Origin: Terriglobus sp. RCC_193
Lineage (GTDB): Bacteria; Acidobacteriota; Terriglobia; Terriglobales; Acidobacteriaceae
DNA length: 64,000 bases
NCBI RefSeq assembly: GCF_041355105.1
Contig: NZ_JBFUPK010000001.1
Span: 1,674,001 to 1,738,000, forward strand
Direction of reading: 5' to 3'
Below the pieces are notes generated by a model. That model searched no databases. It was not told where the DNA came from and saw only the letters and a list, made by a program, of their open reading frames with translations. Position 1 is the stretch's first letter, and each line of letters opens with the position of its first letter. The translations under genes and the position numbers were made by a program. Of this stretch, positions 9,218 to 27,060 are shown one piece after another.

Positions 9218-10063
9218 CTACTCCAGGGGAAGCCCCGCTGCCTCATAACGGCCCAATTCCACCACCTCCCGGCACGATTGGCGCAATCCGGCCACAAGCG
9301 CATCCGCCGCGTCCGCCGACGGAATCCTTAGGTCCACAAAAAACGTGTACTCCCACGGCCGTCCCGGGACTGGCCGCGAATCAATCCGGGTCAAGTCCGC
9401 GCCAGCCGTTACCAGCTCCTTCAGCGCCTCCAGCAGCGACCCCGGACGATGCGGCAGGTCAAACGCCAGCGAAATCTTGTTGATGACCGCCGCCTCGGGC
9501 CGAAGCCTCTCCGCATCCTCCGCCCGCGCCAGCAGGAAAAAGCGCGTAAAGTTCTTCGGATCGTCTTCAAGTCCACTACGCAGGGTCGCAGCGCCGTACA
9601 CCTTTGCCGCAAACGGGGCGGCAATCGCCGCTGCATCCGTTACGTGGTTTGCCATCAGGTGTTTCACCGCGCCCGCCGTGTCATAAAACGGCACCGCCTC
9701 CAGCGCCGGATGCTCCATGAAGAATTTCCGGCATTGCGACAGTGCCACCGGATGCGACAACACACGCTTCACCTGCCCCTCGGCTACGCCAGGTATGGCC
9801 ATCAGCGTGTGCCGGATACGCAGCGAGCACTCCGCGACAATCTGCACGCCGTAACGCAATAACAGGTCCGAATGATCCGCCACGGCGCCATGCAGGCTGT
9901 TTTCCACCGGCAGCACGGCGGCATCGGCTTCGCGGGAACGCGCCAGCTTTTCAAGCACTTCCACAGACAGCGCACACGGCACTAATTCCACTTCACCCAG
10001 CAGTTGGCGTGTGGCCAGGTGGCTGTTCGATCCCGGCTCTCCCTGAATAGCAATCTTTTTCAA
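9218..10063 (-). CDS. pheA: Prephenate dehydratase
   Basis: 281 residues, monofunctional PheA without chorismate mutase. The catalytic domain starts KIAIQGEPGSNSH and contains the NFTRFFLLAR motif; the C-terminal ACT domain (ISLAFDLPHRPGSLLEAL, then DSRPVPGRPWEYTFFVDL) is the phenylalanine sensor. It converts prephenate to phenylpyruvate in the cytoplasm. TTG start chosen because AGGAG lies eight bases upstream and the family usually begins MKIAIQG; an ATG seven codons upstream is the alternative. No leader peptide or attenuator is visible upstream, unlike at aroK. Confidence 0.93.
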   Translation of the reverse strand: MKKIAIQGEPGSNSHLATRQLLGEVELVPCALSVEVLEKLARSREADAAVLPVENSLHGAVADHSDLLLRYGVQIVAECSLRIRHTLMAIPGVAEGQVKRVLSHPVALSQCRKFFMEHPALEAVPFYDTAGAVKHLMANHVTDAAAIAAPFAAKVYGAATLRSGLEDDPKNFTRFFLLARAEDAERLRPEAAVINKISLAFDLPHRPGSLLEALKELVTAGADLTRIDSRPVPGRPWEYTFFVDLRIPSADAADALVAGLRQSCREVVELGRYEAAGLPLE

Positions 10064-23498: not shown

Positions 23499-24134
23499 AT
23501 GACACAAAACAATACGACCCCGGTCACCGGGCACTTCAAGCGGAATCCCCCCATCGCTGGTGAGGCAGACGCTCTGGAGCGCGCAAAAAACGGTGACCCG
23601 GATGCTTTCTCGAAGTTGTATGCCATGCACAAGCGGCGTGTGTACACCCTGTGCCTGCGCATGTTGGGCAATGTTTCTGAAGCAGAGGATATGACGCAGG
23701 AGGCTTTCCTGCACCTCTACCGCAAACTCGGCTCTTTCCGCGGCGAAAGCGCATTCTCCACCTGGCTGCACCGTCTCACGGTGAACCTGGTGCTGATGCA
23801 CCTCCGCAAGAAAGGTCTTCAACTCGTCTCTCTGGAAGAGACCATCAACCCCTCAGAAGAGGACGCGCCCAAGCGCGACTTCGGATCGCGCGACCCGCGT
23901 CTTTCCGGGTCCGTCGACCGGGTTGCTCTGGAGCGCGCCGTAGCCACACTGCCGCCGGGATATCGCCTGGTCTTTGTGCTGCACGACGTCGAGGGATATG
24001 AACATAACGAGATTGCCGGGATGCTCGAATGCTCCACCGGCAACAGCAAGTCGCAGCTTCACAAAGCGCGGCTGAAACTGCGGGAAATTCTGCGGCAGAA
24101 CGAACAAGCCGCCTTGGTGCAGGAGTCAAAATAA
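23499..24134 (+). CDS. ECF-type RNA polymerase sigma factor
   Basis: 211 residues. Region 2 (FSKLYAMHKRRVYTLCLRML, then SEAEDMTQEAFLHLYRKLGSF and FSTWLHRLTVNLVLMHLRKK) and region 4 (LPPGYRLVFVLHDVEGYEHNEIAGML, then GNSKSQLHKARLKLRE) are intact. A linker of about 45 charged residues separates them. The ATG at 23499, with AAGG upstream, is used; the ATG at 23478 is possible. It directs RNA polymerase to a small regulon, usually envelope or oxidative stress. It overlaps the next small gene by a TAATG junction, as sigma/anti-sigma pairs do. Confidence 0.93.
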   Translation: MTQNNTTPVTGHFKRNPPIAGEADALERAKNGDPDAFSKLYAMHKRRVYTLCLRMLGNVSEAEDMTQEAFLHLYRKLGSFRGESAFSTWLHRLTVNLVLMHLRKKGLQLVSLEETINPSEEDAPKRDFGSRDPRLSGSVDRVALERAVATLPPGYRLVFVLHDVEGYEHNEIAGMLECSTGNSKSQLHKARLKLREILRQNEQAALVQESK

Positions 24135-24406
24135 TGCCGGAGAATGATGAAAAGCGCTGGACCTGCGAAGAGTTTGAAAAGGCTCTTCCCGATCTGTTCG
24201 AGCGCGCAGAAGGCGGAAAGCTGAGCGCAGATCCGCGTTTCGCGGCAATCCTGCGGGACTGTCCCCAGGCTGCCGAACTGGTCCGCGATTTGGAGTACAT
24301 CGCAGAAACCGCACGAATGCTGTTGGAACCGGAAGGCGAAGGTCCATCATCCGACCTCTGGGGCAAGATTGAGCGGGAGATCACATCCAAAGACAGCATT
24401 CAGTAA
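24134..24406 (+). CDS. Small probable anti-sigma partner, degenerate zinc motif
   Basis: 90 residues, soluble, acidic, no transmembrane helix. The pattern CEEFEKALPDLFE followed by ILRDCPQAAELVRDLEYI resembles the zf-HC2 anti-sigma domain, but the usual HxxxCxxC is reduced to one cysteine, so zinc binding is doubtful. The start overlaps the sigma-factor stop codon, with AGGAG eight bases upstream, so it is translated together with the sigma factor. A role as anti-sigma or sigma modulator is inferred from position and weak similarity. Confidence 0.7.
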   Translation: MPENDEKRWTCEEFEKALPDLFERAEGGKLSADPRFAAILRDCPQAAELVRDLEYIAETARMLLEPEGEGPSSDLWGKIEREITSKDSIQ

Positions 24407-24430
24407 ATCCATCTCACAAACGAACAAGAG

Positions 24431-24457
24431 CGGCGGCCCAACCGGGACGCCGTTTTT
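24431..24457 (+). terminator. Terminator of the sigma-factor operon
   Basis: CGGCG paired with CGCCG plus CCC with GGG across one mismatch, AACC loop, then TTTTT; 25 bases after the stop codon. Confidence 0.75.
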
Positions 24458-24489
24458 CTTTCAGCCAACGAATCGGGTATGTCAGCGAA

Positions 24490-24605
24490 GCTCATACGAC
24501 CGGAAGGTCGTCATCCTGAGCGAAACGAAGTGAAGCCGAAGCATGCCCTCGAGCGAAGCGAAGGGGACCTGCATTCCTATCCCGCACTAAAATGCTTCGG
24601 GTAAG
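24490..24605. repeat. Intergenic hairpin-repeat island 3
   Basis: One full unit: hairpin ACGACC-GGAA-GGTCGT (24496-24511), then CATCCTGAGCGAAACGAAGTG, and the GCGAAGCGAAGGGGACCTGC tail. In most other copies the stem reads ACGGTC/GACCGT instead, so both arms have changed together. Confidence 0.8.
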
Positions 24606-24686
24606 CCACAAATCGTAAAGCTCCCGCTTGTTACATTCCACTGTCGCTCTATAACTCGAAACTGATCTTTCAACTTTCATTTCCGC

Positions 24687-24715
24687 TTGCCCATCCTCCG
24701 CCCCGGGTGTATGCT
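24687..24715 (+). promoter_or_regulatory. Promoter of the aroK leader
   Basis: TTGCCC (24687-24692), a 17-base spacer and TATGCT (24710-24715). Transcription would begin near 24722-24723, only about four bases before the leader ATG. Confidence 0.65.
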
Positions 24716-24726
24716 CCTCACCAGAG

Positions 24727-24816
24727 ATGACGCAGTTTACCCAGCCCGTTTCCTTTTGGTACCGCTACTGCTTTACAGGCGCGGCCCCGGCGGATTCTGC
24801 GGTCTTGAAACACTAG
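24727..24816 (+). CDS. aroK leader peptide rich in aromatic residues
   Basis: A 29-codon ORF with consecutive codons for FWYRYCF at positions 10-16 (24754-24774) and an earlier Phe at codon 4, so all three aromatic amino acids are represented: six aromatic codons among the first 16. It ends with TAG at 24814-24816, 31 bases before a terminator hairpin, and aroK follows. It has no Shine-Dalgarno, and the predicted transcript would be nearly leaderless. This is the classical layout of a ribosome-stalling leader: shortage of Phe, Trp or Tyr would pause the ribosome on this cluster. The peptide itself probably has no other function. Confidence 0.75.
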   Translation: MTQFTQPVSFWYRYCFTGAAPADSAVLKH

Positions 24817-24847
24817 GAACACCCAAAGACCAATCTCGATCCTCCTG

Positions 24848-24881
24848 AGCCGCGACCCAAAAGGTCGCGGCTTTCGCTTTT
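24848..24881 (+). terminator. Attenuator hairpin upstream of aroK
   Basis: Perfect 10-bp stem (AGCCGCGACC 24848-24857, GGTCGCGGCT 24863-24872), CAAAA loop, then TTCGCTTTT. It ends 34 bases before the aroK ATG, so it would stop transcription before the gene. An upstream segment inside the leader ORF (24778-24785, GGCGCGGC) can pair with the 5' arm (24849-24857) with one bulged A, giving a possible antiterminator. Confidence 0.8.
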
Positions 24882-24915
24882 CCGGAACACAACCAGACAC
24901 AAACCTGAGACCATC

Positions 24916-25479
24916 ATGACAACGCTCGTCGTCGAATCCGCCGTGACCCCACCGCCCGCCACCCTGCTCACCGAACGCATCGTCCTCACCGGCTTCATGG
25001 GAGCGGGCAAAAGCACCGTTGGCCGCCTCCTCGCCGCAGATCTCCGCTGGGATTTCCTTGATGTCGACACCGAGATCGAGCGCCTCGGGGGCACCACCAT
25101 CGAGGAAATCTTCGCAGCGCATGGCGAAGCGGAGTTCCGACGCCGCGAATCCGCCGCCATCGCCCGCAGCCTTGGAACCCGCAACACCGTCATCGCCCTC
25201 GGTGGAGGAGCCCCGGAAGAGATCACCAACCGCCTGCTGCTGGAACAGACACCGAACACCACCGTCGTATTTCTCGATGCGCCCTTCGCCATCCTCTTTG
25301 ACCGCTGTGTATTGCAGGAAGGCGCAGCAGTCCGCCCGAATCTGCAGGACCCGGATGCAGCCGCGGCCCGCTTTCAGCGGCGCATCCCTCACTACATCCG
25401 TTGCTCATCGCACCGCATCATCACTGAGAATTTGTCCATCGAGCAGACAGTAGCCGCCATCCGCGCACAGCTACTGTAA
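24916..25479 (+). CDS. aroK: Shikimate kinase
   Basis: 187 residues. P-loop GFMGAGKST (26-34), the DVD metal/shikimate site (Asp49, Asp51), the Arg-containing FRRRES, the GGG substrate loop (ALGGGAP) and the lid arginine in VRPNL are all present. It phosphorylates shikimate at O3 in the chorismate pathway in the cytoplasm. About 20 residues precede the P-loop strand, slightly longer than E. coli AroK. The gene is preceded by an aromatic-residue leader ORF and attenuator hairpin, suggesting control by charged tRNA-Phe, -Trp and -Tyr levels. Confidence 0.95.
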   Translation: MTTLVVESAVTPPPATLLTERIVLTGFMGAGKSTVGRLLAADLRWDFLDVDTEIERLGGTTIEEIFAAHGEAEFRRRESAAIARSLGTRNTVIALGGGAPEEITNRLLLEQTPNTTVVFLDAPFAILFDRCVLQEGAAVRPNLQDPDAAAARFQRRIPHYIRCSSHRIITENLSIEQTVAAIRAQLL

Positions 25480-25557
25480 AACTTCCACCAACGCCAGAGG
25501 GATACCCTGCATCTCACTGCAAGCAGTACATTTGTTGTTCACCCGGGAGATTCCCCT

Positions 25558-26670
25558 CTGAGCGCTCAGTTTCAGCCCTCGCAACAACCCGCCGACGTCC
25601 AAAGGGCCAATGCAGACACCGGCTTCCCCTCCCGCGATTTCCGCGAAACGCGTCGCCACATCGTCTTCACCGTCGGTCTGCTGGTGCTGTTGGGCCTGTT
25701 CTGGAAGATCCGCCACGTCCTGGGCATTGTGTATGTTTCAGGCCTGCTGGCCGTCGTCCTGAATCCGGTTGTGATGAGGATCGGTCGCGTTCGGATCCGG
25801 GGGCGCAGTATGCCCAAACCCTTCGCCGTGGTGACTCTGGTGGTGGGGATCGTGCTCGGCCTGTTTCTTCTCTGCTGGTTTGGTCTGCCGCCGATTCTCA
25901 ATGACTTCCGCAATTTCCTGACCGACGCACCCGGACGCCTGCCCGCTCTGCTGGCGCGCCTGCAGAGCATCCCCATGGCCGACAAGATCGGCCTCACCCA
26001 CGTAAATGATCGCCTTGCCTCCACCATGGAGACCTTTGCGGGTTACATCTTCAATTCCTTGCCGCAATGGGCCGAACATCTGCTCGACATCCTCACCACA
26101 ACCATCCTGTGCGTGTACTTCATCCTCGAAGGGCAGGAGGTCTACGACTATTTCCTCTCGCTCGTCGTCCCCAAATCGCGTGCGCGGCTGGCCAACACAC
26201 TGCTCGTCGCAGAGGAGCGCGTCTCCCGCTGGCTGATCGGCCAGCTCATGCTCATGCTTCTGGTGGCGATCTACAGCATCATCGCCTTCCGTATTCTTAA
26301 CGTCCGCTACTTTCTCCTGCTGGGCGTCCTCATGGGATTGACCAACATCATTCCCGTCGCGGGCAATCTCGTCACCATCATCCTGATAGCCCTTATTGCC
26401 GCGGCCGACTCCTTCACCAAGGCCGGACTCGTCATCCTTGCCTACCTCATCTATATCCAGCTTGAAAATGCCTTCCTGATACCGCGCATTATGCGGTCCA
26501 GCGTTGACCTCATGGGGGTCACGGTCCTCATTGCCCTGCTCATGGGCACCGCGATCAGCGGCATCCCCGGCGCTCTGGTCGCCGTACCAACCGCCGCCAT
26601 CATCGTGGTCTTCTCCAACGAATACCTCGTCCAGCACCAGGACCCCAATCGCCTCTCCGTGCTCGATTAA
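25558..26670 (+). CDS. AI-2E family transporter (PerM-like), probable CTG start
   Basis: About 370 residues. Multiple transmembrane helices and the family signatures GLTNIIPVAGNLVTII and ENAFLIPRIMRSSVDLMG place it in the AI-2E/PerM permease family, some members of which export autoinducer-2 or act as ion antiporters; the substrate here is unknown. No ATG, GTG or TTG occurs in frame before 25684, which would delete the first helix. The frame is open back to the aroK stop, and a CTG at 25558 has GGGAG eight bases upstream and yields a normal hydrophilic N-terminus (SAQFQPSQQPADVQ). It follows aroK by 78 bases. Confidence 0.85.
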   Translation: MSAQFQPSQQPADVQRANADTGFPSRDFRETRRHIVFTVGLLVLLGLFWKIRHVLGIVYVSGLLAVVLNPVVMRIGRVRIRGRSMPKPFAVVTLVVGIVLGLFLLCWFGLPPILNDFRNFLTDAPGRLPALLARLQSIPMADKIGLTHVNDRLASTMETFAGYIFNSLPQWAEHLLDILTTTILCVYFILEGQEVYDYFLSLVVPKSRARLANTLLVAEERVSRWLIGQLMLMLLVAIYSIIAFRILNVRYFLLLGVLMGLTNIIPVAGNLVTIILIALIAAADSFTKAGLVILAYLIYIQLENAFLIPRIMRSSVDLMGVTVLIALLMGTAISGIPGALVAVPTAAIIVVFSNEYLVQHQDPNRLSVLD

Positions 26671-26689: not shown

Positions 26690-27060
26690 CTTCATACGAA
26701 CGAAGTTCCTCCAGTGAAGCTCAAACGGTCGAAGACCGTCATTCTGACCCTGAGCTTGTCGAAGGGGAAGAATCCCAACACATCCTCAGCGCCACAACCG
26801 CTCCAACTTTCCAGCTCCAAAATCCGGGTGCCCCAGGTTCGCGAAGCTAACCTGGGCCGAGCGGCCAAGCCGCTCCATTCGCGCTGAAGGCGCGAAGCAG
26901 CGAAACTCAAACGGTCGAAGTTCATCTCCAGCGAAGCTCATACGGTCAAAGACCGTCATCCTGAGCGAAACGAAGTGAAGCCGAAGCATGCCCTCGAGCG
27001 AAGCGAAGGGGACCTGCATTCTCCTCGCGCCACTACGATGTGGCACGAAAGCGCCGCAAA
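26690..27060. repeat. Intergenic hairpin-repeat island 4
   Basis: A composite array without genes: hairpin GAAC-GAA-GTTC (about 26698), a CCGTCATTCTGA unit at 26736, the paired-arm element CCCAGGTT/AACCTGGG (26830-26854), the hairpin GAGCGGC/GCCGCTC (about 26859-26876), ACGGTC-AAA-GACCGT (26942-26956) and the ACCTGCATTCTCC end unit. Each stem differs from its equivalents elsewhere but stays complementary. Confidence 0.8.

Follow-up and report, generated by a model that had tools for sequence, protein, structure and literature searches.

A putative leader-peptide attenuator with Phe, Tyr and Trp codons precedes aroK in Terriglobus and recurs before other aromatic amino acid genes of Acidobacteriota

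What governs expression of the shikimate kinase gene of Terriglobus sp. RCC_193, and which amino acids would its control respond to? Within the window analysed here (the whole stretch of DNA, 64,000 nucleotides in length), aroK is preceded by a short ORF rich in aromatic codons and by a terminator hairpin, which an earlier note had read as an aromatic leader peptide and attenuator. The features on which the argument depends are the following.

24687..24715, plus strand: sigma-70-like promoter, TTGCCC (24687-24692), 17 bases, TATGCT (24710-24715)
24727..24816, plus strand: leader peptide ORF of 29 codons, MTQFTQPVSFWYRYCFTGAAPADSAVLKH, read from the sequence and the ORF list
24754..24774, plus strand: control codons 10-16, TTT TGG TAC CGC TAC TGC TTT, encoding F-W-Y-R-Y-C-F
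24762..24770, plus strand: segment 1, the predicted protector 5' arm (CCGC, CUG), lying on codons 12-15, from folds and 1:2 covariation
24776..24785, plus strand: segment 2, with segment 1 (through 24776-24784) or segment 3 (through 24778-24785) as predicted partner
24848..24857, plus strand: segment 3, AGCCGCGACC, the terminator 5' arm and putative antiterminator partner, from folds and covariation
24863..24881, plus strand: segment 4 (24863-24872, GGTCGCGGCT) and the U-rich tail TTCGCTTTT, from reading and a terminator scan
24916..25479, plus strand: aroK, shikimate kinase, the presumed regulated gene (Pfam SKI, 128.6 bits, over the cut-off)

Direct reading confirmed the elements previously claimed for this locus: the 29-codon ORF with its run F-W-Y-R-Y-C-F at 24754-24774, the perfect 10-bp hairpin (loop CAAAA) whose tail ends at 24881, leaving 34 bases to the aroK ATG at 24916, and the pairing of 24778-24785 (GGCGCGGC) with 24849-24857 (GCCGCGACC), which makes eight pairs with one bulged A. 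The tail is T-rich and interrupted by CGC, and the terminator scanner added an outer G-U pair to the stem, giving 11 pairs over 24847-24873. A further hairpin, missing from the earlier note, is formed on the aromatic codons themselves, where 24762-24770 can pair with 24776-24784 as a protector (1:2). The aroK product matches the NCBIfam shikimate kinase models at scores below their curated cut-offs.

Inspection of sequence upstream of aroK in relatives, the check that had been proposed for this reading, showed that the aromatic cluster and the terminator recur. We searched for aroK in 150 genomes of the family (30 loci kept), 19 genomes of the genus and a wider contig set (best 80 loci), and inspected loci L002-L075 (n = 74, some genomes being represented twice). 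At 45 of these 74, aroK is preceded by an ORF with the common core F[TS][YF][RC]YW..AA; eight cores were named by hand and the others by pattern, and setting aside six with identical core sequence left the 39 distinct leaders used below. The 29 loci without a leader comprise four with fewer than 200 bases upstream (L036, L042, L050 and L074), two with a fairly close aroK and enough upstream sequence in which the leader is absent (L056 and L070), and others whose aroK is more distant. No leader was found on scanning L036, L042 and L046, the first two offering just 70 and 196 bases of upstream sequence, and none of a further 51 loci (L076-L126), screened solely by aromatic-residue count, was positive.

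Within the genus, 17 of the 19 genomes carry the leader; in the remaining two, the closest aroK copy has only 70 (G155) and 196 (G160) bases of contig ahead of it, and G155 has a covariance model match at another contig end. Granulicella and Edaphobacter aroK loci carry it as well. Compared without gaps, the window and genome G031 agree at 39 of 43 promoter positions, 87 of 90 leader positions, all 27 terminator positions and 24 of the 100 bases upstream; for genome G154 the figures are 40/43, 87/90, 18/27 and 22/100. The same ungapped comparison of the terminator gave 27/27 for locus L003 and 18/27 for L032. In alignment A2, the terminator hairpin could be placed in all 39 aligned leaders (in L007 by hand).

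Conservation centres on the control codons. Phe, Tyr and Trp all lie inside codons 10-16 in 39/39 leaders, a figure that partly follows from how the cores were found, and inside codons 10-15 in 36. An aromatic residue stands at codon 10 in all 39, at codon 12 in 32, at codon 14 in 36, at codon 15 in 35 and at codon 16 in 24, with looser Phe at codons 4-5, where the residue is aromatic in 13 and 14 of the 39, respectively. The window's clade has Cys at codon 15 instead of the usual Trp, and Trp at codon 11 instead of the usual Thr or Ser; the trio is thus retained at another place. By eye, all three residues were also present in the 29 best model matches (L135-L163, some of which share genomes), and 27 of the 29 precede aroK, L141 and L162 lying outside that recheck. 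Phe codons of the aroK leaders are TTT in 73 cases vs TTC in 43, and in the aroK and trpB coding parts 117 vs 292. At codon 10, Phe is written TTT in 39 of 39 A2 leaders, although TTC prevails in the coding parts; possibly this codon was chosen for sensitivity, or a nucleotide constraint holds it in place.

A generic promoter scan of the window region found no promoter. Since the boxes match at 8 of 12 positions and the scanner's threshold is 9, we judged the promoter by its conservation instead: TTGnnn, 16-18 bases and nAnnnT, at most 60 bases upstream of the ATG, are found in 39/39 leaders vs 8% of shuffles. From the end of the -10 box to the leader ATG there are 11 bases in the window, 7-11 in 36 of the 39 leaders and 17 in the other three, a spacing from which transcription probably starts within a few bases of the ATG. 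For the window, the predicted start at ~24722-24723 would make the ORF nearly leaderless, and the earlier suggestion to that effect is thereby supported over the 39 leaders. An SD-like motif is present in 4 of the 39.

We then considered the alternative pairings. The GCGGC of segment 2 can pair with the GCCGC of segment 3, the terminator 5' arm, and this 2:3 core is paired in 38-39 of the 39 leaders. The protector is most evident in L004, where codons 12-15 (TAC CGC TAC TGG) pair perfectly with Pro-Val-Ala codons (CCAGTAGCGG) to give a 10-bp stem. Its fold energy is -17.9 kcal/mol there vs -9.8 kcal/mol in the window, whose 1:2 hairpin is eroded by a UA/GC mismatch, and two inner 1:2 pairs do not form in 22 and 19, respectively, of the 39 aroK leaders. 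In many relatives the protector is strong and covaries; it is weak in roughly half of the aroK leaders and in the window.

In A2 (39 leaders), 1:2 and 3:4 together are paired in 87.7% of cells vs at most 56.3% when the alignment is slid, and double changes occupy 32 cells vs 8.5 in shuffles, a count that none of 500 shuffles reached; the number of doubly changed pairs, 8, was equalled by 36 of 500. The terminator contributes the bulk of this signal (96.3% paired, double changes in 6 of 11 pairs), the protector being paired in 78.3% and showing double changes at 2 of its 10 pairs. When 57 elements from all gene classes were aligned, double changes rose to 77 cells vs 22 in shuffles (0/500), and compensatory changes appeared in 7 of the 10 pairs of 1:2, in an alignment fitted to the structure. 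For 2:3, no covariation was detected over the 39 leaders: 90 of 500 shuffles reached the paired percentage and 89 of 500 the score, the five core pairs being nearly invariant and therefore consistent with the pairing without giving a covariation signal. The locus thus offers an ORF with a codon cluster, a predicted terminator before the first gene and a conserved putative antiterminator that excludes it, and on the strength of pairing and covariation we assign terminator, antiterminator and, more tentatively, protector to a classical three-state attenuator, in support of the regulatory role previously claimed for the aroK leader.

To ask where a ribosome would have its effect, we folded the transcripts of the 39 leaders, cut before segment 4, with 29 bases masked by the ribosome. 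Mean 2:3 pairing was 0.94, 0.97, 0.95, 0.93 and 0.83 with the ribosome at codons 10 to 14, then 0.41 at codon 15, 0.16 at 16, 0.15 at 17, 0.05 at 19 and 0.02 at 22; it was 0.49 with no ribosome and 0.41 with the ribosome at the stop. The effective stall sites therefore fall on the conserved aromatic positions 10, 12 and 14, and codon 15, the Trp site of the relatives, lies at the edge of the effective range. Stalling had been placed at codons 10-12, which fits these folds and is extended by them to codon 14. Switching between codon 12 (>0.5) and the stop (<0.5) was seen in 21 of the 39 leaders, and between codon 14 and free RNA in 14.

The window itself showed no such switching. Its truncated RNA gave 2:3 pairing of 1.00 when free, with the ribosome at the stop and at codons 10-14, and about 0.6 for codons 15-16. 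Of the positions tested, just codons 17, 19 and 22, at which the ribosome masks segment 2, brought it to 0.00. In the window, the switch may depend on segment 2 being covered by a ribosome in motion, or on 1:2 being the first pairing to form. When three leaders were folded at full length and at equilibrium, no switching appeared: the terminator stood at 0.71-0.91 wherever the ribosome sits, so that switching must be kinetic.

The observed ORF, codons, promoter, alternative pairings, covariation and recurrence before aromatic genes are most economically explained by classical ribosome-mediated attenuation with OR logic, and we consider it highly probable that the element before aroK is a transcription attenuator sensing Phe, Tyr and Trp. 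Transcription would start a few bases before the leader ATG, with the ribosome following the polymerase. Should charged tRNA-Phe, tRNA-Tyr or tRNA-Trp be short, the ribosome would stall at codons 10-14 and cover segment 1, leaving segment 2 to pair with segment 3; no terminator would then form and aroK would be transcribed. With all three plentiful, the ribosome would proceed over and past segment 2, and either 1:2 would re-form behind it or the ribosome would itself cover segment 2, such that 3:4 could pair and transcription would end near 24881. A shortage of any one aromatic amino acid would suffice.

We built a covariance model, R1, from the 39 aroK leaders, followed by a later model, R2. 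On the window's own genome, R1 found two good sites: the aroK leader (E 5.7e-31) and a second copy on contig C2 (130277-130445, minus strand; R1 E 1.9e-9, R2 E 4.5e-12), with the leader MVRSVYFWRFTFRYGATPAAPMEHAL. The genes after this copy are trpB (TIGR00263, 624 bits), trpA, chorismate mutase, DAHP synthase (aroF), a hydrolase-like gene and a tyrA-like ORF, which would presumably be co-transcribed; DAHP synthase was found by search, and all except it and trpB were named by eye. After these two sites, the next R2 site in the genome had E 0.019. Seven weak matches in the same genome (L248-L254) were inspected and are not leaders.

Model matches at E <=0.01 were obtained in 210 of the 397 genomes of the order, a raw tally of hits. 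Nineteen further sites were fetched, of which 13 lie before trpB, 3 before an aroF-type DAHP synthase and 3 before aroK; L255-L259 lie before aroQ, aroF or trpB. In a set of 40 genomes from 38 genera, mostly chosen for having a match, the best site was convincing in 28 and false in G387 (E 6.8e-7), and 11 had only matches of E 4.6e-4 or worse, one of which was inspected and proved false. Loci L184-L211 (28 in all) gave 25 aromatic leaders before aroK, trpB, aroF or aroQ, one leader at a contig edge (L209) and two false matches. L210 (E 6.8e-7) consists of a terminator and the tail end of a long reading frame, and the model matches L211, L245 and L247 were likewise judged on inspection not to be leaders. 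A false match at E 6.8e-7 means that false positives of the model occur around E 1e-6. From alignment A4, three terminator fragments of the reverse strand were not carried into A5 or R2.

At the level of the phylum, matches at E 0.001 were obtained in 42 of 396 genomes, eight of them outside the family; six of these eight matches (L240-L244 and L246, from three other Acidobacteriota families) are aromatic leaders before aroQ-pheA, pheA or aroF, and two are false. Chorismate mutase passed the Pfam cut-off in L188 and L193, and prephenate dehydratase in L188; NCBIfam chorismate mutase models matched L188, L240 and L243 below their cut-offs, the DAHP synthase model passed for L171, and the remaining regulated genes were named by motif or by eye. 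The window also holds a pheA (9218-10063, minus strand; prephenate dehydratase domain, 179.1 bits), upstream of which no aromatic leader was seen, unlike the aroQ-pheA genes of the other families.

Counted anywhere in the leader, from lists typed from earlier outputs, Phe, Trp and Tyr are all present in 15/15 trpB leaders and in 18 of 26 aroF/aroQ leaders; Trp occurs in 20 of these 26 and Phe with Tyr in 24, and family f23 leaders have Trp in two of four (L240 and L242 being without it). By gene class, aroK and trpB leaders thus show the three-way design firmly, and aroF/aroQ leaders partially. At L199 (1501-1653), an aroF leader, a TGA stop occupies the Trp position, so that Tyr is the last residue of the peptide; the hairpins are retained. 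The similarity of ORF and hairpins favours descent of the copies from one ancestor rather than convergence. Since like elements stand before genes common to the three branches, those genes would share one three-way sensor, which suggests a reason for a three-amino-acid sensor on trunk genes.

Does the leader really sense all three? Attenuation could be real and respond to one or two amino acids (Phe, Tyr), the Trp codons being kept mainly as stem, which we regard as possible and rather unlikely. UACUGG makes up half of the 1:2 stem and codons 14-15 lie within it, a stall at codon 15 leaves mean 2:3 pairing at just 0.41, and Trp is missing altogether from 6 of the 26 aroF/aroQ leaders and from two of the four f23 leaders. 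Phe10, however, lies outside the stem and is invariant in 39/39; the Trp11 of the window's clade is also outside it, at a codon where a stall is fully effective (0.97), and every one of the 15 trpB leaders keeps its Trp.

It is improbable that the leader peptide also acts itself, through ribosome arrest at high levels of an aromatic amino acid or as a trans regulator, although its core is conserved at residue level and, in the accessible part of PMC7298713, a trans-acting leader peptide (peTrpL) is reported. The residues flanking the core are variable, the RNA pairing can account for R/C at codon 13 and for P-V-A-A at codons 17-20, and the L199 leader has a stop in place of Trp, all of which count against an active peptide.

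An ordinary terminator of the upstream gene beside a chance ORF is already contradicted by conservation and has next to no probability. The terminator alone is not significant, since the scanner found one in 24000-26000 vs 2.1 expected in shuffles, no more than chance gives in the region; but the upstream ORF ends at 24406 with the conserved promoter between that end and the leader, and core, hairpins and promoter are conserved over the 39 leaders. The cluster (an ATG ORF with >=5 F/W/Y within 7 codons and all three present) arose in 3 of 20000 dinucleotide shuffles of 24687-24915, and when the window's own sequence was cut into 2238 tiles of 229 nt over its two strands, it was found in 2, both over the leader ORF. 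T-boxes control aromatic genes in Firmicutes, but a T-box or metabolite-binding riboswitch acting on the same terminator is hardly credible here, as the conserved part is an ORF and Rfam (amino-acid leaders, T-box and riboswitches included) gave no match to window positions 24600-25000 up to E 5 and, when six related loci were searched up to E 1, just one weak match, which lies in L171 and outside its element.

Leader-peptide attenuation as a kind is classical, and the ilvGMEDA and thr leaders are multivalent, so the earlier note went too far in saying that known leaders respond to a single amino acid. Like the enteric trp and pheA attenuators, the aroK element appears to combine control codons in a short ORF with a putative 1:2 protector, a 2:3 antiterminator and a 3:4 terminator; unlike them, it has three amino acids in one cluster and a nearly leaderless ORF, stands before trunk, Phe/Tyr and Trp genes alike, and matches no Rfam family. 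With the ilvGMEDA and thr leaders it shares the predicted sensing of several related amino acids of a common pathway by one leader, whereas aroK-type leaders would sense aromatics and serve several separate operons, in a different phylum. A comparative survey published in 2010 (Lopatovskaya and colleagues) may treat some of the ground covered here.

The Corynebacterium glutamicum aroF leader, for which an attenuator was proposed, likewise carries aromatic codons (Phe-Tyr-Phe) before a DAHP synthase gene and also speaks against one-amino-acid sensing as a rule; in the available part of that report (PMC4046766), the run has no Trp and no element shared with aroK or trpB is described. The uORFC-13-1 motif of Acholeplasma, as far as the accessible text of PMC8632094 describes it, is a uORF with Phe codon(s) adjoining a terminator before aroF; only Phe is named, the phylum differs, and it is set apart here by description, not by sequence. 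In the portions of the open-licence PMC literature available, we found no account of an acidobacterial aroK, trpB or aroF preceded by an aromatic leader; one survey states that the attenuators predicted in Acidobacteria lacked functions.

The three-amino-acid aromatic leader supplies this large soil phylum with a defined element, a predicted signal and predicted target genes. The covariance model locates it in whole genomes, with some false positives, and the element would constitute a natural OR-gate that can be tested by reporter. Whether, across the Acidobacteriota, one homologous leaderless Phe/Tyr/Trp attenuator cassette serves as the sensor of a whole regulon, having been moved between aroF, aroQ-pheA, aroK and the trpBA-aroQ-aroF-tyrA cluster and perhaps replacing TyrR/TrpR-like diffusible regulators, is to our minds an evenly balanced question.

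Two further observations concern the surroundings of aroK. An AI-2E family transporter gene (PF01594, 25684-26670) lies 3' of it, and a similar-looking ORF was seen by eye 3' of aroK in L146 and L163; with a transporter-like ORF in this position, the AI-2E gene may lie on the attenuated transcript as well. Both genes together are flanked by an exact direct repeat of 64 bases (24510-24573 and 26955-27018).
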